22,036 nucleotides of DNA from positions 1-22,036 of IMG/VR virus record IMGVR_UViG_3300009497_000053. The stretch is one strand, 5' to 3'. The notes under the pieces are model-generated. The model was not told the DNA's origin, made no database searches, and was given only the letters and a program-made list of their open reading frames with translations. Origin of the DNA: a virus. This document shows positions 5,968 to 22,036 of the stretch, piece after piece (the stretch's first letter is position 1; each line of letters begins with the position of its first letter). A program made the translations under genes and the position numbers.

Positions 5968-6043
5968 GGGGGTGTAGCTCAGTTGGGAGAGCACTTGCCT
6001 TGCACGCAAGGGGTCAGGGGTTCGAGTCCCCTCATCTCCACCA
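5968..6043 (+). tRNA. tRNA-Ala(TGC)
   Basis: A complete 76-nt cloverleaf including an encoded CCA. The acceptor GGGGGTG pairs with CATCTCC and contains the G3:U70 wobble pair, the classic alanine identity element. D stem GCTC/GAGC, anticodon stem CTTGC/GCAAG with loop CTTGCAC, anticodon TGC at 6001-6003, T stem AGGGG/CCCCT with loop TTCGAGT. It would read GCA and probably other GCN codons. Confidence 0.97.
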
Positions 6044-6055
6044 TTTTTAAAATTT

Positions 6056-6127
6056 GCGGGTGTAACTCAGTGGTAGAGTCTCTGGTTGCCAATCAGATTG
6101 TCGCTGGTTCGAATCCAGTCACCCGCT
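6056..6127 (+). tRNA. tRNA-Gly(GCC)
   Basis: A complete 72-nt cloverleaf without an encoded CCA. Acceptor GCGGGTG/CACCCGC with discriminator T, D stem ACTC/GAGT, anticodon stem TCTGG/TCAGA with loop TTGCCAA, anticodon GCC at 6088-6090, T stem GCTGG/CCAGT with loop TTCGAAT. It reads GGC and GGT. It sits 12 bases after tRNA-Ala; unlike that tRNA it needs CCA added after transcription. Confidence 0.96.
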
Positions 6128-6143
6128 CTTTTAAAATAAAAAC

Positions 6144-7947: not shown

Positions 7948-8142
7948 ATGAGTATTTTACTTTATAGCATGTTGTTTGCATGCTCAGGCGACAAAGCCGA
8001 CGACACAGCAGTTGCTGATGAACCAGCAACCGAACCAGCGACAGAGCCTGCGACAGAGCCAGCAGTAGAACCAGTTGATTCTGGAGACACAGGCGAAGAT
8101 ACAGGTGCTGAAGATACAGCACAAGACTCAGGAGGTGAATAA
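7948..8142 (+). CDS. Small acidic lipoprotein A
   Basis: A 64-residue protein with a very short hydrophobic start (MSILLYSMLFAC) ending in a lipobox-like LFAC, then SGDK and a low-complexity acidic tail with repeated ATEP/AVEP units followed by DSGDTGEDTG-like Asp/Thr/Gly runs. The mature chain would be lipid-anchored at Cys12 and otherwise disordered and strongly negative. The signal lacks the usual N-terminal Lys/Arg, so secretion is likely rather than certain. It has its own promoter P3 and a good ribosome site, and it is followed by a second lipoprotein and a terminator. Small lipoproteins expressed alone from phage genomes include T5 Llp (receptor blocking) and lambda Bor; a surface role of that sort is an inference. 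An outer spanin is a less likely alternative. Confidence 0.7.
   Translation: MSILLYSMLFACSGDKADDTAVADEPATEPATEPATEPAVEPVDSGDTGEDTGAEDTAQDSGGE
8130..8135 (+). promoter_or_regulatory. Consensus Shine-Dalgarno of lipoprotein B
   Basis: AGGAGG, a perfect consensus, lies inside the last codons of lipoprotein A (Ser-Gly-Gly), 6 bases before the ATG at 8142. This gives the second gene an efficient start of its own in addition to TAATG coupling. Confidence 0.8.
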
Positions 8143-8387
8143 TGAGTATTTTACTATCAATCCTAATCGCATGTGGCGGAGACGCTACTGAGACAACTGA
8201 AGTTGCGGAAACAACCACGACGGAAACAACCATAGTTGTTGAAACAACAACAACTGATAATGGTGGAACCGAAGAGGTTACAACTGAAACAACTGGTACT
8301 ACTGAAACCGAAGGTGTAACAACCGTAAATGAAGGTACAACAGAAGTCACCAATGGCGATAACGAAACTACAATAGTTAACGAGTAG
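8142..8387 (+). CDS. Small Thr/Glu-rich lipoprotein B
   Basis: An 81-residue protein starting MSILLSILIAC with a lipobox-like LIAC, then GGD and a tail made almost only of Thr, Glu, Val, Asn and Gly (repeated ETTT, TTET and VTT units). The mature part would be an extended, acidic, mucin-like chain anchored through Cys11. The first 14 bases of this gene are identical to those of lipoprotein A, and both begin MSILL, so the export signals probably share an origin while the tails diverged or expanded separately. The stop-start overlap (TAATG) and a perfect ribosome site guarantee joint expression, and the operon ends at the hairpin at 8399. The function is unrecognised; see lipoprotein A for candidates. 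Confidence 0.7.
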   Translation: MSILLSILIACGGDATETTEVAETTTTETTIVVETTTTDNGGTEEVTTETTGTTETEGVTTVNEGTTEVTNGDNETTIVNE

Positions 8388-8794: not shown

Positions 8795-11700
8795 ATGCTA
8801 GCTTGCCATATTAGTGACACACATATACGAAACTTAAAATACCACTGGGAATACAGGCAATCTTTTGCCGATCTATACAACAAATTGCGAGACCAAAAAC
8901 CAGATGTCATTATCCATACGGGAGACATCGCACACACAAAAACTCAACTCTCTCCGGAGTATTTTGAGCTAACAGCAGAGTTCTTGTCTACATTGGCAGA
9001 CATTGCTCCTGTAATTATAATCGCAGGTAACCACGATGGAAACCTCAAGAACCCAGATCGCCAAGATGCGATCACACCTATCGTAACTGCTCTTCAACAT
9101 CCGAACTTAACATTTCTTAAGAATTCCGGTGAGTACCAGTTTAACAATGAAATCACATTCAATGTCCTCTCTGTCTTTGACCGAGAGAATTGGGTTCAAC
9201 CCACAGATTTATCAAAAATCAACATTGCTCTTTACCATGGTTCCATCTCAGGATGTGAGACAGGACAAGGCTTTAAAATAAGAGATGGTGATGATACATC
9301 CGAAATCTTTAAGGATTTTGATTATGCCTTCCTTGGCGACATTCATAAACCACAGGTTATGGATAGAGAAGGTCGTGTCAGATATGCTGGTTCGACTTGC
9401 CAACAGAATTATGGCGAAGACCCACGAAAAGGTTATCTTCTTTGGAACATTCAAAGCAAAGATGAATTCTCCGTAAGGCACGAGGTTCTTGTTAATCCAA
9501 GGCCATTTCTTACAATCAACCTAACAGAAGATGGAGAACTACCAGAGACACACATTCCTCCGAATGCTCGGCTTCGTGTTGTATCACGATATAACATTCC
9601 GCTTACAAAGCTAAGACAAGCAGTTGATGCCGCAGAAACTAAGTGGCGACCATTCAGTGTTACTTTTGTAAACAAAGGCGCAGGTTCTAACAGCCAGAAC
9701 CAAGGCATGCTTGCCGATGGTCGCTTTGAAAATCTTAGAGACATTCAGGTTCAAGAAGAGATGATTGAAGAATTCCTTGCCGATAAAGAGTTGGGTGAAG
9801 GAGTATTAGAGAAAGTCCTTGAGCACAATAAAAACTATAATAGAATCGCAGAGGAACAAGAAGATGTCTCTCGTAATGTTATATGGTCCATTAAAGAAAT
9901 GCAATGGGATAATCTTTTTAACTACGGAGAGAAGAATAAGATTTCTTTTGAAAACCTCAACGGAATCGTCGGGATCTTCGGAAAGAATTATTCAGGCAAG
10001 TCCTCTATTGTGGATTCCGCTCTCTATTCTATCTTCAACGATACATCCAAAGGTGAGCGAAAAAATGTCCATGTTATCAATCAAAATAAAGACCAAGCCC
10101 GAGGCCGTATTGACATCCAAGTTGGTGACAACCTCTATAGAATTACCCGCGATTTGGCAAAGATTACCTCTAGTTCGAACAAAGTATCAGCCAAAGTGGA
10201 ACTTGACTTTGCTGTCTTTGATGGCACCGAATGGCAACCATTGAATGGAACAACACGCAATGAAACTGATGCTAATATTAGAAGACACTTCGGGACCATT
10301 GAAGATTTTCTTTTGACCTCGATGGCTTCTCAGATGGACTCTCTGTCTTTTGTTAAAGAGGGCTCGACCAAACGAAAAGAGATTCTCGCAAAGTTCCTTG
10401 ACCTTGATTTGTTTGACGCTAAATTTAAATTAGCAAAAAAAGATACAACGGAAACAAAATCTGTTATCAAGCATCTTCGCTCAATGAATTGGGATCTTGA
10501 GATTCAGAAGAAACAAGACATTCTTGATGATATCGAGATTGATATTATAGCAAATAATACAAGATGTAAACAAATTGATTCTGATCTTACGCTCACAAGC
10601 GCAGAACTTAAAGCACTAGAAGAGGCAATTAACGCAATCCCTGCTGAAATTATTGATATTAATAAAGTTAACGCATCGATTGCTAGAAAGCAAGATCAAA
10701 TAGCATCACTGACCTCTAAAAACTTCGCTTTGATGGCTAAAACTTATGATAATAAGCAAACTTTATCACAAGTAACTACCTTCGTTGATACATTCGACCT
10801 TGAAGTACTGAACCAAGAAAAACAAAGGCATAATGACCTTGTTTGTGAAAAATCTTCAAATTCTTCGGACATTCGTGGACTATCTACCACAATTTTAAAC
10901 GAGGAGAAGAAAATGAAACTCCTCGATGGCATACCCTGCGGGGATTCTTTCCCAACCTGTAAATTTATTGCTGATGCCGTAAAAGCTCAAGAAGGAATAT
11001 CAGATTTGAAAGAGAGAATGGCAAACTTAAAAATGGTTAGCGAAAACATCGAAGCCAAAATTTCAACTCTCAACATTGATGAGGTTGAAGAGAAAATCGC
11101 TTCTTATTATTCAATCGTATCTCGCAAAGAGAATTTACAAACAGAAATTGAACGAGACGAATTACAAGTCGAGAACAATAAAAAACAAATTAAAATTATA
11201 AATAATGATCTTGAAACCCTTTTCTCAACTCAAAGTCTCTATGAAGAAAATAAAGAAGCCATTGAAAATAAAGAGTCATATCTCACTCAGCGAGATCATT
11301 ATGTCCAAAAGAAGCAACATCTTCAAAAAGAGAATGAACAATGTAAAGTTTCTCTTCAAGAGTTTTATATTGAGAAAGGCTCAACGCAACAAGCCATTGA
11401 TGGTTATACTGAGCGAAAAGCAGAGCTTGAGGACAAAGAAAAAGAATTCATTGCTCAAGATTTGTTTCTAGAATGTATGCATTCAAACGGCATTGCCTAC
11501 AATGTCATTCGTCAAATGCTTCCGGTCCTTAACGAAGAGATTGCCAAAATCTTAACCAACATCGTTGATTTTGAAGTATTCTTTGTTGACAACGGAAAAT
11601 CATTAGACATCATGCTTAAGCATCCCAAATACGATGGAAGACCATTATCAATGGGCTCTGGCGCCGAAAAGACATTATCAGCAATGGCAATACGATTAGC

Positions 11701-11926
11701 TCTGATTTCAATAACAAATTTACCAAAATCAGAATTATTCATCTTAGACGAACCAGCAACAGCTTTAGATCAAGAGCATATGGATGGTTTTATTAAAATG
11801 TTAGAAATGATCAAATGTCAATTCAAGACTGTCTTATTAATCTCGCATCTAGATTCTCTTAAAGATTGTGTTGAACAAACTATTGATATACAAAAGAAAG
11901 ATGGCTATGCTTTTGTAAATATTTAA
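8795..11926 (+). CDS. Fused SbcD/SbcC (Mre11-Rad50, gp47-gp46 type) nuclease-ATPase
   Basis: A 1043-residue single chain that joins two normally separate recombination proteins. Residues 1 to about 350 are the Mre11/SbcD metallophosphoesterase: Asp8 and His10 in SDTH, Asp44 in TGD, GNHD with Asn79/His80, His148 in YHGS, and GDIH with His184 (the first His of the usual GHxH is Asp182). Residues from about 365 are the Rad50/SbcC ATPase: Walker A GKNYSGKS (396-403), a long coiled coil (about 520-900) interrupted by Cys715-x6-Cys722 in place of the classic CxxC zinc hook, the signature SMGSGAEK (952-959), Walker B FILDEP (Asp985/Glu986) and a LLISH switch region. There is no stop codon or frameshift between the halves. 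The complex would process DNA ends for recombination-dependent replication. It is driven by P4. Confidence 0.93.
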   Translation: MLACHISDTHIRNLKYHWEYRQSFADLYNKLRDQKPDVIIHTGDIAHTKTQLSPEYFELTAEFLSTLADIAPVIIIAGNHDGNLKNPDRQDAITPIVTALQHPNLTFLKNSGEYQFNNEITFNVLSVFDRENWVQPTDLSKINIALYHGSISGCETGQGFKIRDGDDTSEIFKDFDYAFLGDIHKPQVMDREGRVRYAGSTCQQNYGEDPRKGYLLWNIQSKDEFSVRHEVLVNPRPFLTINLTEDGELPETHIPPNARLRVVSRYNIPLTKLRQAVDAAETKWRPFSVTFVNKGAGSNSQNQGMLADGRFENLRDIQVQEEMIEEFLADKELGEGVLEKVLEHNKNYNRIAEEQEDVSRNVIWSIKEMQWDNLFNYGEKNKISFENLNGIVGIFGKNYSGKSSIVDSALYSIFNDTSKGERKNVHVINQNKDQARGRIDIQVGDNLYRITRDLAKITSSSNKVSAKVELDFAVFDGTEWQPLNGTTRNETDANIRRHFGTIEDFLLTSMASQMDSLSFVKEGSTKRKEILAKFLDLDLFDAKFKLAKKDTTETKSVIKHLRSMNWDLEIQKKQDILDDIEIDIIANNTRCKQIDSDLTLTSAELKALEEAINAIPAEIIDINKVNASIARKQDQIASLTSKNFALMAKTYDNKQTLSQVTTFVDTFDLEVLNQEKQRHNDLVCEKSSNSSDIRGLSTTILNEEKKMKLLDGIPCGDSFPTCKFIADAVKAQEGISDLKERMANLKMVSENIEAKISTLNIDEVEEKIASYYSIVSRKENLQTEIERDELQVENNKKQIKIINNDLETLFSTQSLYEENKEAIENKESYLTQRDHYVQKKQHLQKENEQCKVSLQEFYIEKGSTQQAIDGYTERKAELEDKEKEFIAQDLFLECMHSNGIAYNVIRQMLPVLNEEIAKILTNIVDFEVFFVDNGKSLDIMLKHPKYDGRPLSMGSGAEKTLSAMAIRLALISITNLPKSELFILDEPATALDQEHMDGFIKMLEMIKCQFKTVLLISHLDSLKDCVEQTIDIQKKDGYAFVNI

Positions 11927-11982: not shown

Positions 11983-12417
11983 ATGAAAATAACAAAAGAA
12001 GAACTTTCTAACATTATCAGAGAAGAAACAGCAGCTTGTCTTGCAGAATATGAAAAAGAGAAAGGTGCTGACGGCAAAGCTTGTTGGGACGGCTATAAGC
12101 ATGCTGGAACCGAAGATGGAAAAGATAAATGCGTCAAGATGGAAGAAGCAGAAACCATAGATGAAGAAACCGACAAAGATCGTATGGCTTGTAATAAACC
12201 TCGTTATATAAAAAAGGGTGAACCGGGCCACGGTAAGAAGCAAAAGGTTGTAAAAGCTTGCGATAAGGGCAAAGAAAATATTGTTCGTTTTGGTGATGCT
12301 AACATGAGAAACAATAGTGATAAACCTAAAAATAAAACAAACTTTAGAAAAAGACATAATTGTAAAGACAAAAAAGATAAAACAAAAGCTGGCTATTGGT
12401 CATGTAAGGATTGGTAA
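11983..12417 (+). CDS. Tagged Cys/Lys-rich hypothetical protein (tag copy A)
   Basis: A 144-residue hydrophilic, very Lys-rich protein with seven cysteines. It begins MKITKEELSNIIREE, the leader shared with the genes at 12419, 15310 and 21593. I choose 11983 rather than the ATG nine bases upstream because the leader then aligns exactly and AAGGG (11968-11972) sits 10 bases before it. The tail NFRKRHNCKDKKDKTKAGYWSCKDW, given here as the segment F-R-K-R-H-N-C through Y-W-S-C-K-x-W, is a pattern I associate with marine phage proteins of unknown function. The leader contains I-R-E at residues 12-14, a possible cut site, and a second L-A-E at 18-20. I infer a packaged or head-associated basic, perhaps metal-binding, protein; the function is not known. 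Confidence 0.75.
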   Translation: MKITKEELSNIIREETAACLAEYEKEKGADGKACWDGYKHAGTEDGKDKCVKMEEAETIDEETDKDRMACNKPRYIKKGEPGHGKKQKVVKACDKGKENIVRFGDANMRNNSDKPKNKTNFRKRHNCKDKKDKTKAGYWSCKDW

Positions 12418-12418
12418 A

Positions 12419-12868
12419 ATGAAATTAACAAAAGAAGCTTTAAAGCAAATAATCAAAGAAGAACTTGAAGGAGTTCTTGAAGCGTATATGGGACCAATGG
12501 GACCACGAGGAAGAGGCGGCTATAAGCCATCGGGTCAACAAGCACGAATGGCCCCTGATCTAGCCTTCAAATTATTATCTTTCGGATGGAATGAGCTTGA
12601 GGAAGATCAAAGGCAAGAAATAGAAGCCTTGGCGAAAAGGCAAGCCGACATTGGCAAAACTAAACTTCGTGATGCTGTCGCGAAGGCGAAGAAGCCAGAA
12701 GTGGAAGAAGGTATGCTGGGGAAATTTAGAGATGCTATCATGGGACCTGAAACTGAAAAAGATAAGAAGGACGCAAAAGTCCGTCAACAAAAGATGCAAA
12801 CTAGAAAAACGCAAACCCCGTCTTCAAGCATGAAGCTCCGTGGTCCATTTGAAGAGGACAAAAAATAA
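12419..12868 (+). CDS. Tagged hypothetical protein (tag copy B)
   Basis: A 149-residue protein. The frame is open further upstream, but the start at 12419 is set by the shared leader MKLTKEALKQIIKEE and by an AAGGA site at a normal distance overlapping the end of the previous gene. After the leader comes a short Met/Gly/Pro/Arg segment (MGPMGPRGRGG), then a soluble helical region and a charged tail rich in Lys, Gln and Thr. I see no known domain. I-K-E at 12-14 offers the candidate protease site. The previous stop is one base upstream, and its own stop overlaps the next start (TAATG). Role inferred as head cargo with its neighbours; otherwise unknown. Confidence 0.72.
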   Translation: MKLTKEALKQIIKEELEGVLEAYMGPMGPRGRGGYKPSGQQARMAPDLAFKLLSFGWNELEEDQRQEIEALAKRQADIGKTKLRDAVAKAKKPEVEEGMLGKFRDAIMGPETEKDKKDAKVRQQKMQTRKTQTPSSSMKLRGPFEEDKK

Positions 12869-13200
12869 TGGATAAAGAACAAATAAAAGAACTTGGTGAA
12901 AAAGCTAAAGAAGAACTCAACGAACTCAAGGAAGATGTCAAAGAACGACTTGAGAGCGATGGAGTTTCTCTAGCAAAAGAAAAAGTCAAAGAGGTTGCTA
13001 AAAAAGTATCAACTAAAAATTCTTTGTTAGACAAAATGCTTGGGAAAATTATCTCTCGTAAATTGCTTGTATTTGTTACAGCAACTGTACTTCTCGCACA
13101 ATACGGCCTTGATCCAGACACTTGGGGAATGATTGCTATTGTTTATATCGGCGGACAATCTGTCGTCGATACAATGAAGATGTGGCGACATGGAAGATAA
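12868..13200 (+). CDS. Small membrane protein, possible holin
   Basis: A 110-residue protein. The first 55 residues are a highly charged, heptad-like helix (KEQIKELGEKAKEELNEL and onwards). Then come two hydrophobic segments, about 65-79 and 87-100, separated by GLDPDTW, and a short basic tail. Two closely spaced membrane segments with a charged end are compatible with a holin, and the next two genes look like spanin-type lysis proteins. No endolysin is visible nearby, so the holin call is tentative; a simple membrane-remodelling protein is an alternative. Stop-start overlaps (TAATG) on both sides tie it to its neighbours. Confidence 0.65.
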   Translation: MDKEQIKELGEKAKEELNELKEDVKERLESDGVSLAKEKVKEVAKKVSTKNSLLDKMLGKIISRKLLVFVTATVLLAQYGLDPDTWGMIAIVYIGGQSVVDTMKMWRHGR

Positions 13201-13601
13201 TGAACCTACTCAAGCTTCGTAAGTACTGGCAACTTACTTGCTCTTTTGCCAAAGCGCATTGGAGAGGGTTAGTTGTGGGTGCTGCGATGTTGCTGTGCTA
13301 TTTCTACGGAAAGAAAGTAGAAAAGAAAATGAAGTTAGATAGAGCCATGGCCTTGGCTCAATGGGATAAAGACAAAAAAGAAATTGAAAGATCTTATGAG
13401 TCTGAAATGGCCAAGAAAGCCAAAGCCAAAGAAAAATATGATGCCGCCATGCTAAAGGCCGAAGAAGCTAGAAAAAATGCAACCGATGAATTTGACAGAG
13501 TAAAGGCAGCAGAATTAAAGAAAATGATTAAGAAAGCCAAGTCCGACCCTGATGAGATTGATCGAATTCTTGAGGACAGCTTAGGGATAAAGAAAGTATG
13601 A
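13200..13601 (+). CDS. Membrane-anchored coiled-coil protein, possible inner-membrane spanin
   Basis: A 133-residue protein. I place the start at 13200, where the ATG overlaps the upstream stop (TAATG), rather than at a longer frame reaching back into the previous gene. One N-terminal membrane segment (about 22-37, GLVVGAAMLLCYFYG) is followed by a continuous Lys/Glu/Ala-rich coiled coil to near residue 120. A single N-terminal anchor with a long periplasmic coiled coil is the architecture of Rz-type inner-membrane spanins, though it is not unique to them. It overlaps the next gene by ATGA. Spanin is a tentative call from topology and neighbours. Confidence 0.62.
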   Translation: MNLLKLRKYWQLTCSFAKAHWRGLVVGAAMLLCYFYGKKVEKKMKLDRAMALAQWDKDKKEIERSYESEMAKKAKAKEKYDAAMLKAEEARKNATDEFDRVKAAELKKMIKKAKSDPDEIDRILEDSLGIKKV

Positions 13602-13993
13602 TTTTATTATTATGGGCATCTCTTGCTTGGGGCGAAGCACAATTCACCCAACTAGAAGAAGGTGATGTTGCTCCGTTTGCTGGTCGCTTATTGAACGATG
13701 AAGCAATTTCAAAGCTTTTAGTAGATCAACAATTAGCTGGCGATGAATGCCAAATTGCGGTGGACTATGAGCTAGACATTGCTATGGCTCAATGGAGCTA
13801 TCGAATGTCAATTCAAGAGCTAACCCTTGAAGGAAAGATCGAAAGATCAGAAGCTCTTGTTGAGTCTCAAAAAGAACAAATAGTATATCTCCAACAACAA
13901 GTTAAACCAGCGAAGCCATTTATTTGGATCACAACGGGATTTATCGTTGGAACATTATCTTCGTTAGGAATTTACCATTCTGTTAAGGATTAG
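13598..13993 (+). CDS. Secreted, C-terminally anchored protein, possible spanin
   Basis: A 131-residue protein with an N-terminal signal-like segment (MILLLWASLAWGEA), an ectodomain, and a C-terminal membrane segment (about 107-126). The motif EEGDVAPFAGRLL at about residues 20-32 is a pattern I have met in small phage membrane proteins. A helical stretch at about 70-102 leads to the anchor. Signal plus C-terminal anchor recalls unimolecular spanins, but there is no lipobox cysteine, so it is not a classical u-spanin. It begins within the last codons of the preceding gene (ATGA overlap), as lysis genes often do. Lysis function is an inference. Confidence 0.6.
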   Translation: MILLLWASLAWGEAQFTQLEEGDVAPFAGRLLNDEAISKLLVDQQLAGDECQIAVDYELDIAMAQWSYRMSIQELTLEGKIERSEALVESQKEQIVYLQQQVKPAKPFIWITTGFIVGTLSSLGIYHSVKD

Positions 13994-13995
13994 CC

Positions 13996-14532
13996 ATGAG
14001 AGTAAAAATAAAAAGAAATATTAAAGAAGGCCCCAAAGAACTGACTCCGTTTAAGCTTTCTAATACACAAGACAAGATAGCCAAACAGATAGAAGAGTTC
14101 TATGCGAAAAAGAAAAGATACAGCGGCATTGAAGAGATAGGCGAATGGAAAGGCTATGAACTTCGCAAGATAGTTGGTAAATTTGATAATACACACAGAT
14201 GGTTCTTATACGATGATGGAGAGCCAAAACTTTTTGTTAAGTTCTCCGGCTATGGCGATCCACAATCGTCAGAGTATGGATTACAAATAAATAACATCCG
14301 CAAGACCAAAGGTGCTGAAGGTGAATTCAAAGCTAGTGATTTCTATAAGTTCCTCATGGAACAAGAAGATATAAACCCAAATGGTATCTTATACAGCGAT
14401 AGCCAACAAACTCCCGGCGGTAAAGAAATTTGGGATAGACTGAGAGCAGACTCTCTGAGAGCAGACTCTAAAATTGATTTTAAAGACCTCGGCAATGTTT
14501 ATCGAGCGAAATTTAAGGCAGAAGAATCATGA
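13996..14532 (+). CDS. Hypothetical protein, 178 aa
   Basis: A soluble protein of 178 residues beginning MRVKIKRN. The C-terminal part contains GILYSDSQQTPGGKEIWDRL (about 134-153), which resembles a motif of small phage proteins sometimes compared with acetyltransferases (Y-S-D...G-G-x-x-I-W-x-x-L); I would not call an enzyme from this alone. Residues in the segment LRADSLRADS come from a perfect 15-bp tandem duplication (14440-14469), a recent in-frame expansion near the end of the gene. Its first 21 bases differ from those of the next gene at only a few positions. The ATG starts 2 bases after the previous stop and its own end overlaps the next gene by ATGA. Confidence 0.68.
   Translation: MRVKIKRNIKEGPKELTPFKLSNTQDKIAKQIEEFYAKKKRYSGIEEIGEWKGYELRKIVGKFDNTHRWFLYDDGEPKLFVKFSGYGDPQSSEYGLQINNIRKTKGAEGEFKASDFYKFLMEQEDINPNGILYSDSQQTPGGKEIWDRLRADSLRADSKIDFKDLGNVYRAKFKAEES
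14440..14469 (+). repeat. Perfect 15-bp tandem duplication inside a gene
   Basis: CTGAGAGCAGACTCT occurs twice back to back (14440-14454 and 14455-14469). It keeps the frame and duplicates five residues (LRADS). The copies are identical, so the event looks recent. Confidence 0.95.
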
Positions 14533-14939
14533 GAATAAAAATAATAAGATCATCTAGCAAACTTGCATGCCCAAAGGCAACACAAGATTTAGAATTAAAT
14601 ACAAAAAATAGAGATGCTTCTATTGAAGCAGAGCACATACAATACGGACCTCTAAACTTGACTGACGAAGGCTATTGGGAAAGAGCAGCAGATCATTGGA
14701 ACACCGATGTAAAGACAGCCAAACAATCATTGTGCGGCAATTGCGTTGCATTTGATATTAGCCCTCGTATGGAAGAGTGCATGCCCGGTGAAGTATCTGA
14801 CGGAGATGGAAAACTTGGTTATTGTTGGATGCATCATTTCAAATGCCATAGTGCTCGCACATGTTACACTTGGGCCGATGGTGGTCCGATAAAAGAAGAT
14901 AAAATATCAAATGATTGGCAGAAAAAATCGGAGGACTAA
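14529..14939 (+). CDS. Cys-rich conserved phage protein
   Basis: A 136-residue protein starting MRIKIIRSSSKLACP. Seven cysteines: 14, then a cluster 69, 72, 84, 99, 106, 112 with CGNC, YCWMHHFKCH and ARTCYTW around them. The cluster together with His102, His103 and His107 looks like a binding site for zinc or an iron-sulfur group. I recognise the general pattern (SKxACPxATxDLxLNTKNRD and CWMHHFKCHSARTC) from uncultured marine phages but know of no function. The gene overlaps both neighbours (ATGA upstream, TAATG downstream), so it is embedded in the operon. Confidence 0.72.
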   Translation: MRIKIIRSSSKLACPKATQDLELNTKNRDASIEAEHIQYGPLNLTDEGYWERAADHWNTDVKTAKQSLCGNCVAFDISPRMEECMPGEVSDGDGKLGYCWMHHFKCHSARTCYTWADGGPIKEDKISNDWQKKSED

Positions 14940-15313
14940 TGTCGAAAGATCCAAATTATGTTGTAAAAATAGAACAAGCGATAGCTGAAAAATACGGTGA
15001 AGAAACAATCCAAAATCCTAAAAAAACTTGGACCGATGAGAAAGAAAAACAATATATATCTCAGCTTAAGGATTTTTATTCTCCATCTGGTAGCGATGAA
15101 GAATTTGAGAAGAAAGAAATAAATGGTGTTTTAATACCAAAAAAACTACTTAATAGTGATTCTAATCGCTCATGTCCTGTTTGTTCTGTTTATACTACTA
15201 AATCACAAGACGATCTTTATTTTACTAAGTTTAGTTGTTGTTTTAAGTGTTATGTACAATGGGTAGAAGGCCGAGAAGAAAGATGGAAAACCGGCTGGAG
15301 ACCAAGCAAATGA
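14939..15313 (+). CDS. Small zinc-ribbon protein
   Basis: A 124-residue protein. I take the ATG at 14939, overlapping the previous stop (TAATG) and preceded by CGGAGG, over an ATG 24 bases earlier. The N-terminal 75 residues are charged and helical. The C-terminal 47 contain CPVC (79, 82) and CCFKC (100, 101, 104), a four-cysteine zinc-ribbon layout, followed by W-V-E-G-R-E-E-R-W and G-W-R-P. This end is a pattern I recognise from small marine phage proteins of unknown role. Binding to DNA or to a protein is plausible, not shown. The stop overlaps the next start (ATGA). Confidence 0.72.
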   Translation: MSKDPNYVVKIEQAIAEKYGEETIQNPKKTWTDEKEKQYISQLKDFYSPSGSDEEFEKKEINGVLIPKKLLNSDSNRSCPVCSVYTTKSQDDLYFTKFSCCFKCYVQWVEGREERWKTGWRPSK

Positions 15314-15693
15314 AACTTACAACAAAAATTCTTAAGCAAATGATTGCTGAAGAGATGAACAATGCGGCACCTATTAAAGAAGGTTATAAAGAAGCCTTGG
15401 GTGAATTTCAAAATTTAGTACAAGAGTACAGCCTTAGTCGCGAAGACATTCTTGGAATAGCTGATATGCTTTTCCCTATAGACGAACAGCAATTGTCCGA
15501 GGGTATGGAAAATATTACTCCTGAGAATTTAGAACTTGTTCTGGATGCCGTAGTAAAAATGGCTGGTATTTTTGGACCAGCAATTATGGCTACTGTAACA
15601 GGGTCAGCAGTTTATAAACAAATCATGGGACGGAAAGCTGAAATTGATCAAGAAGCCGGATTAGATGAAACGAAGGTTAAAGAGGAATTATAA
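15310..15693 (+). CDS. Tagged membrane-associated hypothetical protein (tag copy C)
   Basis: A 127-residue protein. The frame is open 63 bases upstream, but the start at 15310 is supported by the shared leader MKLTTKILKQMIAEE, by GGAG 9 bases upstream (15297-15300), and by the ATGA overlap with the previous stop. After the leader the chain is helical and acidic, then has one hydrophobic stretch (about 80-102, MAGIFGPAIMATVTGSAVY) and a charged tail. I-A-E at 12-14 is the candidate cut site. It differs from the other tagged proteins in carrying a possible membrane segment. Role inferred with the tag family only. Confidence 0.68.
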   Translation: MKLTTKILKQMIAEEMNNAAPIKEGYKEALGEFQNLVQEYSLSREDILGIADMLFPIDEQQLSEGMENITPENLELVLDAVVKMAGIFGPAIMATVTGSAVYKQIMGRKAEIDQEAGLDETKVKEEL

Positions 15694-15694
15694 T

Positions 15695-16231
15695 ATGAGT
15701 TCAACAACATTAGAAATTATACAAGGTCTTGCTCAAGCAGCCTCAAGAGCATACGATGGCGCTCATGTCGCTGATTACAACGACGATGGCCGTGAAAGAT
15801 CTGCCGGTCTCAAAAGAGAAGAAGGAAACCCAATTATTGATAGTCGTGTTATTGATGGTTTCAAAGTTCGCTTTTCTGGTCCAACGATGATCTTAACCTA
15901 TCAGTCTGAGATCAAACTGAAAGAAGTTTATGCTGGTGGGTTTGAAAACGACATCGACAGACAACTAAACGAAATCAAAAAGTTTTTACAAAAAGAATAT
16001 AAAGTTATAACAGGCAACCCAATCACATTGACTAAAGATGGAGAAAGCAATATTCTTGTTCAATCTTCATCTCGTGTACACTCTTGGGTTCAAGCGACCC
16101 AAGTTTATAAAATTGGTAAAATTGATGCTGAAGGAATTCTTCAGCCATCTGAGCCAACAGTTCGTGAGGTCACAAAGAAGTTTTTAAAACAAGCAAAAGC
16201 TAAACGACCGAGCAACGATACAAGGAAATAA
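15695..16231 (+). CDS. Conserved hypothetical protein next to terminase
   Basis: A 178-residue protein. I choose the ATG at 15695, with AGAGGA (15681-15686) 8 bases upstream, over one 30 bases earlier that overlaps the preceding gene. Recognisable segments are AYDGAHV, GLKREEGNPIIDSR, DGFKVRFSGPTMILTYQSEIKLKEVY and SSRVHSWVQATQVYKIG. I recall proteins of this kind beside the terminase of marine T4-like phages, with no known function. The size would suit a small terminase subunit, but I see no helix-turn-helix, so I do not assign that. Its stop overlaps the terminase start (TAATG). Confidence 0.7.
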   Translation: MSSTTLEIIQGLAQAASRAYDGAHVADYNDDGRERSAGLKREEGNPIIDSRVIDGFKVRFSGPTMILTYQSEIKLKEVYAGGFENDIDRQLNEIKKFLQKEYKVITGNPITLTKDGESNILVQSSSRVHSWVQATQVYKIGKIDAEGILQPSEPTVREVTKKFLKQAKAKRPSNDTRK

Positions 16232-17814
16232 TGGGATTTGAGTTATCAAAGAAGGAAATTGTAAAGGAAATTGTAAAATCTGGTAAAGATCCGGTTTACT
16301 TTATAAACAACTATTGTCGTATTTCCCATCCCCTTAGAGGACTGATACCTTTCAAAACCTTCCCCTACCAAGATGATTTGGTACAAGATTTTAATGATTT
16401 CCGTTTTTCGGTTATTCTCAAAGCCCGACAGCTAGGCATCTCAACGATTACTGCCGCCTACATTGTCTGGCTTATTTTATTTCACCGTGATAAGAATGTC
16501 ATGGTATTGGCAACGAAATTTGCCACGGCTGCCAACTTGGTAAAGAAAGTAAAAGCAATGATGAAGAATCTACCAGACTGGATTCGCATCACAGATATCT
16601 CAATTGATAACAGAACTTCGTTTGAGTTAACCAATGGCTCACAGATTAAAGCCTCGTCAACCTCTGGTGATGCTGGTCGTTCGGAAGCCCTCTCCCTCCT
16701 CGTAATTGACGAGGCTGCTTTTGTTGATGGCCTTGATGAACTCTGGACTGCTCTCTATCCTACTCTATCAACTGGTGGTCGTTGTATAGCCCTTTCAACG
16801 CCTAACGGTGTCGGTAACTGGTTTCACAAGACCTTTGTTGATGCTGAGGACAATCAAAACGATTTCAAATCTGTCGTACTCCCATGGGAGGTACACCCAG
16901 AGCGAGATCAAGAATGGTTTAGAAATGAAACCAAAAACATGTCGCGTCGTCAGATAGCACAAGAGCTTGAATGTAACTTCAACTCATCTGGTGAAAATGT
17001 TCTTAATTCCGAAGATATGGAATGGGTCCACACTTGTGTGAGCGATCCTGTCTATCGGGTAGGCTTTGATAGAAATTTCTGGATTTGGGAGAAGTATCAA
17101 GATGATTCTAAATATTTGCTGGTGGCTGATGTGGCTCGTGGTGATGGAGCAGATTATTCGGTTTTTCATATCATCAAGCTTGGGACAATGGAAATAGTTG
17201 CGGAGTATCAAGGTAAGCCATCTCTTGACTTATATTCCGACATTCTCTTTGATGCTGGTAATGAATACGGCAAATGCCTTTTAGTTGTCGAGAACAATGG
17301 AATTGGCATTTCGGTTTTAGAAAAGCTAATCTTAAAAAATTACTCTAATCTCTACTATTCAATTAAAGGATCGCACGAATTCATCGAGCAACATAAGGCG
17401 GATTATGTATCCAATTCAGTTCCCGGTTTTACTAACTCTTCAAAAACTAGGCCACTAATTATAGCGAAAATGGAAGAGTACATAAGAAACAAACTAATTA
17501 CTGTTAGATCTTCACGACTTTTTCATGAATTCAAGACTTTTATTTGGCATAATGGGAGACCACAAGCAATGCGATCATACCACGATGATCTGGTTATGGC
17601 GTTATCAATCGCATGCTGGGTTCGAGATACAGCGATAGAAGTAGACCAACGAGATGTAGCCTATAAGAAAGCAATGATGGGCGGCATGATGATGTCTAAA
17701 ACTCAAATGCAAACCACCATTAAGGGCCAATCGGCTCATAAAGAAGATTTTTATAATAAGCATAAAGATTCTATACAACAGACTAAAGACTTTGTATGGA
17801 TTTTTAAAGGATAG
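16231..17814 (+). CDS. Terminase large subunit (gp17-like)
   Basis: A 527-residue packaging motor and headful nuclease. The ATPase part has KARQLGIST (64-72) at the P-loop position and LLVIDEAAF with Asp160/Glu161 as Walker B and catalytic Glu. The nuclease part has VADVARGDGADYS with Asp300, VVENNGIGIS with Glu354 and HDDL with Asp452/Asp453. The order and length agree with T4 gp17 (about 610), a little shorter at the N-terminus. The usual P-loop Lys before Ser/Thr is Ile70; Lys64 upstream probably takes its place, as in deviant Walker A motifs. It is coupled to the gene before it (TAATG) and followed after 3 bases by the portal gene, with which it docks during packaging. Confidence 0.95.
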   Translation: MGFELSKKEIVKEIVKSGKDPVYFINNYCRISHPLRGLIPFKTFPYQDDLVQDFNDFRFSVILKARQLGISTITAAYIVWLILFHRDKNVMVLATKFATAANLVKKVKAMMKNLPDWIRITDISIDNRTSFELTNGSQIKASSTSGDAGRSEALSLLVIDEAAFVDGLDELWTALYPTLSTGGRCIALSTPNGVGNWFHKTFVDAEDNQNDFKSVVLPWEVHPERDQEWFRNETKNMSRRQIAQELECNFNSSGENVLNSEDMEWVHTCVSDPVYRVGFDRNFWIWEKYQDDSKYLLVADVARGDGADYSVFHIIKLGTMEIVAEYQGKPSLDLYSDILFDAGNEYGKCLLVVENNGIGISVLEKLILKNYSNLYYSIKGSHEFIEQHKADYVSNSVPGFTNSSKTRPLIIAKMEEYIRNKLITVRSSRLFHEFKTFIWHNGRPQAMRSYHDDLVMALSIACWVRDTAIEVDQRDVAYKKAMMGGMMMSKTQMQTTIKGQSAHKEDFYNKHKDSIQQTKDFVWIFKG

Positions 17815-17817
17815 AAG

Positions 17818-19755
17818 ATGGCACCACGAAAAAAAACAAGAAATGGTAAAAACCCAAACAACGAAAATAATGAATTATTCAAAGCGCTGACTAGATTATT
17901 TTCAGGACCTATTGTAACTCGACGGACTCAAACGGGTCGTGATTTACGACGACGACATTTAGATGTCTACGCCAGTCAGTTCCGTACACCTTCTGGACAA
18001 CAATTTAAAAAAATTGATCAGTATAGTCCACTAACTCAACTCGGAGCCAATATGGTTGCTAATCGCAACCGATCCGAAAGATATATAGATTTTGACGAGA
18101 TGGAGTATACACCAGAGATTGCTTCGTCATTAGACATCTATGCGGATGAAATGACAACACACTCAGCCTTACAGCCCATGCTTAATGTTAAGTGTACTAA
18201 CGAAGAAATTAACTATCTTCTTCAAAACCTTTATCACAAAGTTCTTAATATAGATTACAACCTTTTTGGATGGTGTCGTACCATGTGTAAATACGGAGAC
18301 CTATTTCTTTATTTAGACATTGATGATAAAATGGGAATCCAAAATGTAATTGGCTTACCTCCTCAAGAGATCGAAAGATTAGAAGGCGAAGATCCTGCTA
18401 ATCCTAATTATGTTCAATACCAATGGAATTCCGGTGGACTTACCCTTGAAAACTGGCAAGTTGCTCATTTTCGTATTTTAGGTAATGACAAATTTGTGCC
18501 TTATGGAACTTCTGTATTAGAACCAGCTAGAAGGATTTGGAGACAATTGATTTTACTTGAAGATGCGATGATGGCATATCGAATTGTTCGATCTCCTGAG
18601 CGTCGTGTTTTTAAAATCGATGTTGGTAACATCGCACCTGAAGATGTAGAACAATACATGCAGAAGGTTATGACTCAGATGAAGAGACACCAAGTTGTTG
18701 ATCCATCAACTGGTCGTGTAGACCTTCGCTACAATCCTCTTTCAATTGAAGAAGATTATTTTATTCCTGTCCGAGGCGGCAGTACCTCAGAAATCTCTAA
18801 TTTACCCGGAGGACAATTTACTGCTCAGATAGAAGATGTTAAATATTTACGAGACAAACTCTTTTCAGCTTTAAAGGTACCTCAATCATATCTATCGATG
18901 GGAGAAGGAGCAACTGAAGATAAAACAACCTTAGCTCAAAAAGATATTCGATTTGCTAGAACAATTCAAAGACTACAGAGAGTGGCTATTTCTGAATTAG
19001 AAAAAATTGGAATTATTCACTTATATACTTTAGGATTTAGAGGCGATGATCTTCTTAGCTTTAAACTATCTCTTAACAACCCATCAAAGATAGCTGAACT
19101 TCAAGAGCTAGAACACTGGAAACAGAAGTTTGAAGTTGCCGCTGCTGCTACTGAAGGATACTTTTCAAAGCGCTGGGTCGCAGAAAATATGTTTGGAATG
19201 TCCGCAGACGAATTTGTTCGTAATCAACGAGAGATTTTCCATGATAAGAAATTTTCTGTTGCTCTTGAAAATGTAGGACAACCAGATGAAGAAGCCGGAG
19301 GCGGCGGTGGTGGCCTTGGAGATCTTGGCGACCTTGGTGGAGATGACCTTGGTGGTGATGAAGATTTAGGTGATCTTGACTTAGGTGCTGGTGACGAAGG
19401 TGAAACAGAAGATGCTGGTGGTGACGAGGAAACAACCCTTTTAGCCACACCTCCCGCCAACAGAGATGATGGCAAGCGAGGACCTTATAAAAGACACAAA
19501 TCTTCATATGATAAAGGAAGATTAACAAAGAATTATAAGAATGTCGCTACTTCGGGTGAAGTCCGTGGATCAACCAAAAGAACCACCTTTCCGGGTAAGA
19601 TGGGAGATAGCGGTCTTGACTCTTTAACTAAAGGAATGTTTGAAGAAATAATAGTGCATGAGGATTTAGAAGAGAAAAAACTATTTAAAACAAACAATGA
19701 GATTAAAAGTTTACTAGAAAGCTTAATTATTAGGGATGACGAAGATGAAACATAA
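17818..19755 (+). CDS. Portal protein (gp20-like)
   Basis: A 645-residue portal, the ring at the unique head vertex that receives the terminase and nucleates head assembly. Support: position right after terminase; a T4-gp20-like N-terminal part (DMEYTPEIASSLDIYADE written here as segments E-Y-T-P-E-I and A-S-S-LDIYADE); a central region with RRIWRQLILLEDAMM and RAPERR-like IVRSPERRVF; and YLSMGEGATEDKTTLAQKDI. Residues about 491-540 are an acidic, Gly/Asp/Leu-rich low-complexity insert (GGGGGGLGDLGDLGG then DDLGGDEDLGDLDLG), followed by a conserved-looking basic tail (GPYKRHK). T4 gp20 is about 520 residues, so the C-terminal extension accounts for the extra size. Its end overlaps the next gene. 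Confidence 0.93.
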   Translation: MAPRKKTRNGKNPNNENNELFKALTRLFSGPIVTRRTQTGRDLRRRHLDVYASQFRTPSGQQFKKIDQYSPLTQLGANMVANRNRSERYIDFDEMEYTPEIASSLDIYADEMTTHSALQPMLNVKCTNEEINYLLQNLYHKVLNIDYNLFGWCRTMCKYGDLFLYLDIDDKMGIQNVIGLPPQEIERLEGEDPANPNYVQYQWNSGGLTLENWQVAHFRILGNDKFVPYGTSVLEPARRIWRQLILLEDAMMAYRIVRSPERRVFKIDVGNIAPEDVEQYMQKVMTQMKRHQVVDPSTGRVDLRYNPLSIEEDYFIPVRGGSTSEISNLPGGQFTAQIEDVKYLRDKLFSALKVPQSYLSMGEGATEDKTTLAQKDIRFARTIQRLQRVAISELEKIGIIHLYTLGFRGDDLLSFKLSLNNPSKIAELQELEHWKQKFEVAAAATEGYFSKRWVAENMFGMSADEFVRNQREIFHDKKFSVALENVGQPDEEAGGGGGGLGDLGDLGGDDLGGDEDLGDLDLGAGDEGETEDAGGDEETTLLATPPANRDDGKRGPYKRHKSSYDKGRLTKNYKNVATSGEVRGSTKRTTFPGKMGDSGLDSLTKGMFEEIIVHEDLEEKKLFKTNNEIKSLLESLIIRDDEDET

Positions 19756-20548
19756 TAAGAAAAGAAATACCGCTTTTCTTTACGAGTGCTTAGTTAAAGA
19801 ATTAACAAAGGCAATTGTTAGAAATCAAGATGAAAGAAAACAAAAAATAGTAGAGATACTAAAGAATTATTTTTCATCAGGAACAGTCCTTAAAGAGGAA
19901 TTAAAAATTTATAGTTCTCTTCTTGAGGGAACAGGTCACACAGATAATTCTCAATCTCTTAGGGTAATCTACGAGATCAAGAAAGATTATGAAAATTTAG
20001 ATCGCAAGAAAGTCTTCAATGTACAGACTACCTTGATTAAACAAATAAACGAAACATTCACTCCAAAAATCTTTTCTAATTTTGTGCCCAATTATAAAAA
20101 CATAGCTACTGCTGGGCTATTTTTTAATCAATCAAGGCTCCCTGCCAAAAAGCGACTTTTAATTGAAAAGCGTGTAATAGAGTTTCGTATTGAAAAATTA
20201 AATGAATCCAAAATGCAACACATAGACAATCTTACTTATAAGACTTTTGTCAACAAATTTAACGAAACCTATTCCGAATCGTTGAGACCGGAACAAAGAG
20301 ATTTATTAACTAATTTTATTGTGTCTTTCTCGGACAATGGCTTAGGTTTAAAATCTCATATGAATGAAGAGATAGGAAGATTGAAAAAATCTTTATTAAA
20401 TCTTGAAAATAATACATATGTCGATAATGCTCAAAAAGTTGTCGATAAACTCAATAATTTTAGCAAAAGGCGCATAGACGAACAAATGCTTAGGGATCTC
20501 TTTTACATCCAAGATTTAGTCTATGAGGTAAAGAAAAATGGCAATTAA
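19745..20548 (+). CDS. Conserved head-region protein, 'MKHNKKRN' type
   Basis: A 267-residue soluble, charged helical protein. I choose the ATG at 19745 because MKHNKKRNTAFLYECLVKELT is a conserved beginning that I recall from marine phage head clusters and because GGG (19733-19735) is 9 bases upstream; the ATG at 19736 would leave no room for a ribosome site. It begins inside the last codons of the portal gene. Internal landmarks are NFVPNYKNIATAGLFFN and KKRLLIEKRVIEF. No enzyme motif is seen. Position after the portal, where T4 has its prohead core genes, suggests a scaffold or core role; this is context only. Confidence 0.7.
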   Translation: MKHNKKRNTAFLYECLVKELTKAIVRNQDERKQKIVEILKNYFSSGTVLKEELKIYSSLLEGTGHTDNSQSLRVIYEIKKDYENLDRKKVFNVQTTLIKQINETFTPKIFSNFVPNYKNIATAGLFFNQSRLPAKKRLLIEKRVIEFRIEKLNESKMQHIDNLTYKTFVNKFNETYSESLRPEQRDLLTNFIVSFSDNGLGLKSHMNEEIGRLKKSLLNLENNTYVDNAQKVVDKLNNFSKRRIDEQMLRDLFYIQDLVYEVKKNGN

Positions 20549-21155
20549 TGTTAAATTAGCAGGTAGTTCCCAACTGCCTCCTCCCGATACTTCAATCAGT
20601 GTCTCAATTAATCCTTCTTCGCCTAAAATTGGAGTTGCCTTAAACAACCCAAAAATAAATGAAGTTAAATTTAATTTAAATATTCGTGAAGCAAATAATG
20701 GTGATTTAATGATTTTTGATCATCCTGAAATTGATATTGTGGTTATGGTAGAGCAAAAAAAGGTTATGACATTTGCTAAAGATTTAGCAACAGATACAGT
20801 TTATGGAACTTCTAGTCGTCTTATGGAAAGACTTCGACGAAAAGGAATACTTCAATTTGACACCATACAGGGTGGGAATATCTATGGTTCTCTAGAGGGA
20901 ATCATGTTAGAAATGAAAAACACTGAAAAGAAAGATAATTTAATTCCACTAGTTCTCAACCAGATTTCAGAATGGATTGAAGAAGAACGACCGGCATGGG
21001 TTAGCATGGAAGATTATGAACAAATGTATGATGATTATTTAACCCATCCTGATGCTGAAGATTCAACAGCACTTGGCAAGGTCCCCGAAAAAGCAGAGAA
21101 AGGCTCAATCCGCCCTTACATTTTCGGCGCCTATCCATACGGGGGCTATTACTAG
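20538..21155 (+). CDS. Conserved head-region protein, 205 aa
   Basis: A 205-residue protein. After a low-complexity Ser/Pro N-terminus (about 1-40) it carries GDLMIFDHPEIDIVVMVEQKKVM (written in parts: GDLMIFDHPEIDIV then MVEQKKVM) and GGNIYGSLEGIM, then ends in an acidic stretch and a Tyr/Gly-rich tail (FGAYPYGGYY). I recall this pattern from head clusters of marine T4-like phages, without a function. It overlaps the previous gene by 11 bases and ends 2 bases before the DUF1360-like gene. A head-assembly role is likely from context. Confidence 0.7.
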   Translation: MAINVKLAGSSQLPPPDTSISVSINPSSPKIGVALNNPKINEVKFNLNIREANNGDLMIFDHPEIDIVVMVEQKKVMTFAKDLATDTVYGTSSRLMERLRRKGILQFDTIQGGNIYGSLEGIMLEMKNTEKKDNLIPLVLNQISEWIEEERPAWVSMEDYEQMYDDYLTHPDAEDSTALGKVPEKAEKGSIRPYIFGAYPYGGYY

Positions 21156-21157
21156 AG

Positions 21158-21499
21158 ATGAATATAAACTTTTTAGAATTTGACGCAGGCTGGCTTTGGT
21201 TTATCCTCGCCGCATACGGCCTCACACAAATTCTTGTTTATGGATCAGTCTTTGATAAAATCCGTCCTGCTAAGGATGCTTATCGTGGCTGGGGTAAAGT
21301 TTGGCATTGTCCTATGTGTATGGGTTTTTGGGTTGGTGCCCTTTTATTCACCTTAAACGGCTTTACCGAACTATTTACATTTGATTATACATTCGCAAAC
21401 TTTTTAATTTGCGGGTGGATGGCATCAGGAACATCGTATTTTTTGAGTATGCTTGTGAACGATGACGGAATAAAGATTAACACTAAGGAGCAATCATGA
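21158..21499 (+). CDS. DUF1360-like small membrane protein
   Basis: A 113-residue protein with about three hydrophobic segments (roughly 10-29, 55-70, 80-100). Between the first two lies HCPMCMGFWVG with Cys51 and Cys54; the C-P-x-C-x-G-F-W pattern with flanking membrane segments is that of DUF1360 proteins, small membrane proteins of unknown function found in phages and bacteria. The start at 21158 follows the previous stop by 2 bases. The stop overlaps the start of a 17-codon reading frame (ATGA). The reason for a membrane protein in the head cluster is unclear; prohead assembly at the membrane is one thought. Confidence 0.75.
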   Translation: MNINFLEFDAGWLWFILAAYGLTQILVYGSVFDKIRPAKDAYRGWGKVWHCPMCMGFWVGALLFTLNGFTELFTFDYTFANFLICGWMASGTSYFLSMLVNDDGIKINTKEQS

Positions 21500-21549
21500 C
21501 TAAGAAATGGATGTTACAACCAGTTCGTCGCTGTTGCAGCGGGTCCTAA
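21496..21549 (+). CDS. 17-residue peptide ahead of a terminator
   Basis: A short frame reading MTKKWMLQPVRRCCSGS. AAGGAG (21485-21490), close to a perfect ribosome site, is 5 bases before its ATG, and the ATG overlaps the upstream stop (ATGA), so translation is well supported. Its last codons fold into a CGCTG-TTG-CAGCG hairpin, and the terminator at 21552 begins 2 bases after the stop. This arrangement resembles a leader peptide with attenuator, or else a true micro-protein at the end of the operon. There is no recognised family. Confidence 0.5.
   Translation: MTKKWMLQPVRRCCSGS
21529..21541 (+). other. Small hairpin inside the 17-residue frame
   Basis: CGCTG (21529-21533), triloop TTG, CAGCG (21537-21541). 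It precedes the terminator hairpin by 10 bases, giving two hairpins in tandem. Could be chance; its position is what makes it notable. Confidence 0.35.
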
Positions 21550-21551
21550 CT

Positions 21552-21578
21552 CGGGCGGGTAGCGCCCGTTTGAATTTT
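21552..21578 (+). terminator. Rho-independent terminator
   Basis: Stem CGGGCG (21552-21557) / CGCCCG (21563-21568) with a 5-base loop GGTAG, followed by TTTGAATTTT. The stem is GC-rich in a very AT-rich region. The T-tract is broken by GAA, so efficiency may be partial. It separates the terminase/portal operon from the tagged gene at 21593. Confidence 0.7.
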
Positions 21579-21592
21579 ATGAGAGACTAACA

Positions 21593-21937
21593 ATGAAACT
21601 TACAAAAGAAAGACTTAAACAAATTATTAAAGAAGAAATAAGCAAGGTTACTGAAGTATATGGTAATTATATTCCCGGTGAGACAGCACCCGGAAATACT
21701 GATATGGGTTACGGCAAGGCTCCGCAAGACGATCTTGAGCCGAATGCTCCACGAGAAATTACTGTTGATGAAAGAGAACAACTAGAATCTATAGTCAGAC
21801 TAATGACTTCTGATGAGCTTGTAGATCTTATGAGTAAGTTGGATGATGAAACAAAAAAACTTGTAATGAAAGACTTTTTGGGACAATCAGGACGCAACAA
21901 TGAATTTGGTAATCCAGCTTATGATTTAGAGCGATAA
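21593..21937 (+). CDS. Tagged hypothetical protein (tag copy D)
   Basis: A 114-residue protein beginning MKLTKERLKQIIKEEISKV, nearly identical in its first 15 residues to the leader of the gene at 12419 despite differing at many codon third positions. After the leader come a Gly/Pro/Asn-rich linker (GNYIPGETAPGN) and an acidic helical domain of about 60 residues rich in Leu, Asp and Lys (REQLESIVRLMTSDELVDLM). I-K-E at 12-14 is the candidate cut site. It lies directly after a terminator and directly before what may be the prohead protease gene, in the place where T4 has small prohead core genes. Core or internal head protein is the best inference. Confidence 0.75.
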   Translation: MKLTKERLKQIIKEEISKVTEVYGNYIPGETAPGNTDMGYGKAPQDDLEPNAPREITVDEREQLESIVRLMTSDELVDLMSKLDDETKKLVMKDFLGQSGRNNEFGNPAYDLER

Positions 21938-21938
21938 A

Positions 21939-22036
21939 ATGTCTAAGAAACTTTTACAAGAATATTACGAACTATGCCCCGATGGTATGTGTCCCGACCT
22001 TCTCACCGAAAGAGAGAAGAAAGAGATCTCCAATGG
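21939..22036 (+). CDS. 3'-truncated gene, possible prohead protease
   Basis: The window ends 32 codons into this frame: MSKKLLQEYYELCPDGMCPD, then LLTEREKKEISN. The ATG is one base after the previous stop. The short segment LLTExEKKxxSNG resembles what I recall of N-termini of marine phage prohead proteases, which continue into the serine-protease fold, and gp21 follows the portal cluster in T4. With so little sequence this is a guess from order and a short motif. Sequence beyond the window would decide. Confidence 0.4.
   Translation, partial: MSKKLLQEYYELCPDGMCPDLLTEREKKEISN

Follow-up and report, generated by a model that had tools for sequence, protein, structure and literature searches.

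A probable capsid-targeting propeptide shared by unrelated proteins of a putative Far-T4-type phage lineage

Four proteins encoded in a 22-kb stretch of viral DNA (IMG/VR record IMGVR_UViG_3300009497_000053, positions 1 to 22,036; hereafter the window) begin with the same leader peptide, or tag, and continue into bodies that do not resemble each other. Very probably, this leader serves a Far-T4-type myovirus lineage as a capsid-targeting propeptide, which a gp21-type prohead protease would cut after I12-x-E14. The original prediction had proposed just such a modular tag, sending diverse cargo to the prohead and cut in the manner of gp21 after I-x-E at residue 14, and it passed every in silico test. 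The four open reading frames (ORFs) are present at the predicted starts with the predicted N-termini (proteins 1 to 4, starting at 11983, 12419, 15310 and 21593, respectively; Table 1), and I12-x-E14 is common to all of them as IRE, IKE, IAE and IKE. Their bodies are indeed unlike each other: proteins 2 and 4 are singletons in BLAST clustering, and protein 3 belongs to a small recurrent family. Two longer contigs, G003 (48.6 kb) and G032 (43.3 kb), contain parts that match the window at 99.9% identity.

Collection of further proteins bearing the leader, as the original prediction proposed, shows that it recurs across viral contigs and is shared beyond chance. Its consensus is MKLTKxxLKQIIKEELxxVLxE. 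Written as a degenerate DNA pattern, the leader matched at least 119 stretches in IMG/VR viral contigs and none among 84,980 bacterial and archaeal species genomes, and a codon-scrambled version of the pattern had no match in the viral contigs. A looser pattern gave more than 100 matches in 26 phage records, with as many as at least 20 in one record and all on a single strand within each record; the reversed-pattern control gave none. A tblastn search of phage records with the bare 22-residue consensus found no match, the query probably being too short for significance, and a literature search of open-access papers returned unrelated proteomics matches rather than a description of the motif.

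The pattern of conservation points to a cleavage site. Among 414 unique N-termini selected by residues 1–9 alone, conservation continues past residue 9 with Q/E-I-I-K-E-E-L and then a weaker [VLI][LM]xE at residues 19–22, reaching background from about residue 23. The shared peptide of the original prediction is thereby confirmed, but it runs further than claimed, to about residue 22. E14 is retained in 382 of 401 N-termini, whereas 39 of these 382 have exchanged E15 for A (17), V (10), S (5), T (3), Q, C or G. The 13 N-termini that keep E15 and lose E14 come mostly from one unrelated family with a chance N-terminal resemblance (SLIGQEITNSLGFYGG). A fixed E14 next to an E15 that tolerates small residues is the pattern predicted by a cut after E14. 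E22 was also considered as the main cut and was demoted, because [LIVM]xE closes at residue 14 in 95% of N-termini and additionally at residue 22 in only 32%.

A second line of evidence is provided by the capsid protein, whose cleavage site the original prediction had suggested for comparison. T4 gp23 loses a 65-residue propeptide (PMC9026906), the sequence at the cut being FLTE65/A66 (a slash marks cuts throughout). When the maturation interval is placed by alignment to T4 gp23, the capsid proteins of 17 of 19 tag-bearing phages display [QE]LL[KR]E/[AS], and the other two have RQLISE/N and KQLLDE/V. The tag counterpart of this capsid hexamer, (L)KQIIKE/E, is near-identical. The N-terminus of the protease itself has LLTE in tag-bearing phages and IIKE/S in Microcystis phage Mel-JY01.

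A third comparison is offered by protein 1, in which a second cut would fall after E61 (TIDE/ET, codon 12163–12165), the point where untagged homologues start. Its C-terminal RYWSCKxW-type domain (residues 62–144) is shared with Roseobacter phages, Pelagibacter phages and others. Six complete genomes without the prohead protease family PF03420 have the domain without such a leader; it begins a few residues after the Met in five of the six, and in S-EIVl it follows a short extension that has no [LIV]xE. On the other hand, ten T4-type sequences (from the window, Kyanoviridae phage C48C1, immuto gp099 and seven IMG/VR contigs, two of them nearly identical) carry an N-terminal extension that closes in [LIV]xE at the aligned domain-border column. 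The border motifs are TIDE/E, VLEE/A, ELTE/A, PLEE/K, ELDE/G, SLTE/A, CVNE/A, DINE/A and EVNE/A (twice), so that, as judged by alignment, the domain border is marked by an [LIV]xE motif. Leaving the window aside, six of the nine records contain PF03420, and the remaining three are fragments. The MKLTK tag accounts for only some of these leaders: the C48C1 protein at 68091 (MKKFKQYIDE...LTE/AEYQG) has the same mature domain as protein 1 and [LI]xE at the border, with a T4-style leader instead. In this comparison a removable-looking leader is thus found on this domain only in T4-type phages. The domain itself is small and contains Cys, and it is present in several kinds of marine phage (L288, L289, L292, L293); one record assigns it to an HVA1 family. 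Taken together, the invariance of E14, the match to the capsid hexamer and the domain-border comparison support cleavage after [LIV]-x-E.

The protease that would make these cuts is linked to the leader both locally and across records. Its gene starts 1 bp past the stop of the gene for protein 4 and is truncated by the end of the window; it is complete in contig G032 (PF03420, E 1e-30), where a scaffold homologue and a gp23-type capsid gene lie further downstream. The original prediction required a prohead protease in the genome, and the PF03420 homologue from 21939 supplies one. The order portal, tagged gene, protease, scaffold, capsid parallels T4 20-67-68-21-22-23, and homologues of gp17, gp20, gp21, gp22 and gp23 follow in the order expected of a T4-type head module. 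The window terminase is closest to that of Flavobacterium phage immuto (48.8%), and divergence together with the literature suggests a Far-T4 placement (PMC4360716). PF03420 is present in 24 of 40 tag-bearing records compared with 2 of 26 control records retrieved with an arbitrary 14-mer (Fisher p = 2e-5). Because the controls are generally shorter, a cleaner figure comes from the 21 tag-bearing records in which a gp23-type capsid gene is present: every one of them has the protease. Among records no shorter than 120 kb, the 12 with at least two tag matches all carry PF03420, and two of these, of 242 and 289 kb, have at least 20 tag matches each. The G032 head cluster also contains a ribosomal protein S21-like gene slightly downstream of the protease (reverse strand, rc 22295–22510), and a gene annotated as RpsU occupies the equivalent place in Mel-JY01 (22183–22410).

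This linkage bears on whether the tag instead docks to some other phage or host partner, such as a chaperone, a membrane, a replication complex or a maturase like those of ribosomally synthesized and post-translationally modified peptides (RiPPs), in which case its function would be unrelated to the head and I-x-E would be incidental. The AlphaFold models of proteins 1 and 3 are poor (mean predicted local distance difference test, pLDDT, of 53 and 57), although residues 5–28 of protein 1 are predicted to be helical, with a pLDDT of about 80 over the first 20 residues, and a helix would suit such a partner. RiPP precursors also have a leader followed by a variable body. However, such docking would not be expected to produce strict co-occurrence with gp21 and gp23 head genes, the E14/E15 asymmetry, the capsid cut-site match or the border comparison, and the bodies are long (median 105 amino acids) and diverse. 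A head-unrelated partner is therefore very unlikely.

Selection on the peptide is indicated by codon usage. L8 is encoded by six codons, and mixed synonymous codons are found at invariant tag residues across families, which argues that selection acts on the peptide. This part of the original prediction held, while its exclusion of a recent DNA copy must be softened. Each contig's tags make up a dialect: residue identity at variable leader positions is 0.62 within a contig and 0.49 between contigs (permutation maximum 0.52), and leader codon agreement is 0.63 within contigs compared with 0.56 between them. This likeness leaves room for some copying, and tag DNA may in part have been copied within genomes. 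A more extreme version of this idea is that the leader is a spreading DNA element, either a recently copied 5' segment or a translation-enhancing start, encoding a peptide that is itself functionless. It would account for the likeness of leaders within one contig, in residues as well as codons, and for near-identical leader DNA in several genes of G024. It is barely credible, given the mixed synonymous codons at invariant residues, a between-contig codon agreement of just 0.56, a constraint on E14 far above that on E15, and the occurrence of tags without Met inside ORFs. Two neighbouring window proteins, at 13996–14532 and 14529–14939, start MRVKIKR and MRIKIIR, and a tagged protein in G033 (85289–85744) starts MRIKIERLKQIIKEEL, possibly a hybrid leader.

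The bodies behind the leader are extremely varied. By single linkage at BLAST E 1e-3, 368 tagged proteins with usable bodies form 294 families, of which 255 have a single member; tags within fused ORFs are what hold the largest cluster together. No two of 148 tagged representatives match a common Pfam or PHROG family; tblastn with a 415-amino acid tagged protein found no match in named phages; and Pfam, PHROG and NCBIfam searches gave no function for the window cargo, nor did a function emerge for any other cargo. The "ITPEN" family of protein 3 carries the tag on five of the six other members found, the sole exception being one shorter ORF, and protein 3 has a possible second cut (LSE64/G) ahead of the conserved segment. 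Protein 3 had also been called membrane-associated; a single hydrophobic C-terminal helix is present, so that the label remains a guess. The tag stands mostly at the start codon, but a few copies, some without Met, lie within long ORFs (L084 residue 413; L036 residue 80; L204 residue 218). ORFs with two or three tags (L084:8754-10637, the L036 ORF from 6538, L204:4325, L088:7241, L012:365 and L021:5916) give the impression of cargos joined into polyproteins, which the prohead protease could take apart.

What the cargo does is a separate matter, on which two views can be compared. It is plausible, though tentative, that Far-T4 phages possess a general tag-based delivery system on a much greater scale than T4, with dozens of unrelated cargos per genome, some as multi-tag polyproteins that the prohead protease would divide, and that these cargos make up an injected anti-defence arsenal which can be listed by sequence. 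Alternatively, the tag may target the prohead core while the cargo serves as scaffold, core or lining of the head and is mostly degraded or retained there rather than ejected as effectors. The gene for protein 4 occupies the position of the T4 67/68 core genes, whose products form part of the prohead core (PMC9026906). Representative bodies are acidic (median isoelectric point, pI, 4.9 compared with 6.9 in untagged ORFs, which are partly spurious) and Cys-poor (0.3% compared with 1.4%), and their Glu/Ala-rich composition resembles that of scaffolds, although 17% of families exceed pI 8 and some window cargo is Lys-rich. On the other hand, hundreds of unrelated, fast-changing bodies clustered away from the head genes better suit an accessory arsenal, and one tagged cargo is a pentapeptide-repeat protein (L214:3609-4229; PF00805, 4e-32). 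Such repeats are able to imitate DNA and block gyrase. A purely structural cargo is thus rather unlikely.

The capsid-targeting mechanism would proceed as follows. An amphipathic N-terminal helix (about residues 1–22) would bind the prohead core during assembly, so that any protein bearing the leader would be built into the prohead. The gp21-type serine protease would then cut after I12-x-E14 and often also at a second [LIVM]xE site near residues 20–22 or at the mature-domain border. Mature cargo would be set free in the head, from which it could be ejected together with the DNA. Both the docking of the helix to the core and the gp21 cut are proposed by analogy with the T4 targeting peptide, and by extension the tagged proteins would be present in virions, would be ejected and might act against the host.

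The closest parallel is found in T4 itself. The internal proteins IPI, IPII and IPIII likewise carry a short N-terminal peptide on non-homologous bodies (MKTYQEFIAE/A in IPII and IPIII). In both systems a hydrophobic pair followed by x-E stands at the cut, the layout is M-K-...-(F/I)-I-x-E, and the genome has a gp21-type protease. The first 10 residues of the T4 peptide suffice, residues 4 and 7 serving targeting and residues 8 and 10 processing (PMC9026906); the latter two correspond to I12 and E14 of the tag. The likeness to T4 claimed in the original prediction thus holds for layout and logic but does not extend to detectable homology or cargo charge. The tag helix spans 14–22 residues compared with 10 in the T4 peptide, the window bodies have no Pfam or PHROG match to the T4 internal proteins, and hundreds of cargo families, with as many as at least 20 matches per genome, compare with three in T4 and at least 10 reported among related phages. 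The few T4 internal proteins all counter host restriction enzymes; T-even Ip1–3 have the packaging leader alone in common and differ in which GmrSD Type IV restriction enzyme they block (PMC12373910). By this precedent an anti-defence arsenal is plausible here, although function and targets are known for the T-even repertoire, whereas the present bodies match almost no family.

Other phages use related strategies. The ejection proteins of phiKZ and SPN3US likewise have propeptides that a gp21-related protease cleaves on the C-terminal side of glutamate, but at a motif different from that of the tag, and we know of no common tag sequence of this kind among them. Redundant cut sites are reported for the phiKZ propeptides (PMC9026906). 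The N-terminal 30 residues of P1 DarB send the protein into a myovirus head (PMC9024508), but the P1 Dar N-termini lack a common consensus, unlike the tag. Among cultured relatives, Flavobacterium phage immuto (NC_055915) has shorter tags of the form MKKSxLxxIIKEx. Short leader-like N-termini closing in [LIV]xE are found in its gp071, gp072, gp080, gp082, gp095, gp114 and gp168; examples are MKKSQLRQIIKE/A (gp080), MKKSELVKLIKE (gp095), MSLINEIKQILSE, and EHFIAE/A inside gp071.

Several observations weigh against a capsid-targeting propeptide. All of the cut sites are deduced from sequence. A hidden Markov model (HMM) of the tag has no significant match to T4 IPI–III, leaving homology to the T4 leader unsupported, and the mostly acidic cargo differs from the basic T4 internal proteins (PMC9026906). 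The protease is not detectable in 16 of the 40 tag-bearing records, all of them gp23-less fragments, the window included. The immuto candidate gp094 has no [LI]xE in register. Finally, [LI]xE[AGS] beyond the tag is weakly enriched over shuffles but not clearly above untagged ORFs, an unconvincing signal.

The remaining window features include tandem genes for tRNA-Ala (TGC) and tRNA-Gly (GCC) at 5968–6128 and two adjoining short ORFs (7948–8142 and 8142–8387) with similar lipoprotein-like signals (MSILL...AC) followed by Thr/Glu/Pro-rich low-complexity repeats. A single 1043-amino acid ORF (8795–11926) combines an SbcD-like metallophosphoesterase with an SbcC-like ATPase; the T4 counterparts are the separate genes 47 and 46.

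Table 1. Tagged genes and head genes of the window
Feature	Position	Strand	Evidence or remark
Tag of protein 1, MKITKEELSNIIRE, residues 1–14	11983..12024	+	Putative cut after E14; leader HMM match at residues 1–22
Tagged protein 1, 144 aa, C-terminal RYWSCKxW-type domain	11983..12417	+	phrog_7595, 2e-10
Tag of protein 2, MKLTKEALKQIIKE	12419..12460	+	Leader HMM
Tagged protein 2, 149 aa, Gly/Arg-rich then Lys-rich, orphan body	12419..12868	+	
Tag of protein 3, MKLTTKILKQMIAE	15310..15351	+	Leader HMM
Tagged protein 3, 127 aa, recurrent ITPEN family	15310..15693	+	
Large terminase (gp17-like)	16231..17814	+	phrog_2, 1.8e-51
Portal (gp20-like)	17818..19755	+	phrog_213, 3.2e-75
Conserved head-cluster protein, homologue of immuto gp073	19736..20548	+	
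Tag of protein 4, MKLTKERLKQIIKE	21593..21634	+	Leader HMM
Tagged protein 4, 114 aa, acidic; between portal and protease genes	21593..21937	+	
gp21-type prohead protease (Peptidase_S77), 5' end, first 32 codons, then window end	21939..22036	+	PF03420

Overall, the comparisons strongly support a capsid-targeting propeptide system whose kind is known but in which the tag and the lineage would be new and the repertoire far larger. As a second, sequence-independent case of capsid-targeting logic, it could allow rules of core docking and gp21 cleavage to be derived, and the tag is a possible cargo-loading signal for phage-based protein delivery. The proposal is testable in the cultured relative immuto, with its shorter tag. 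For uncultured aquatic phages, the tag would make it possible to rank dark-matter ORFs as proteins packaged in the virion and possibly injected.

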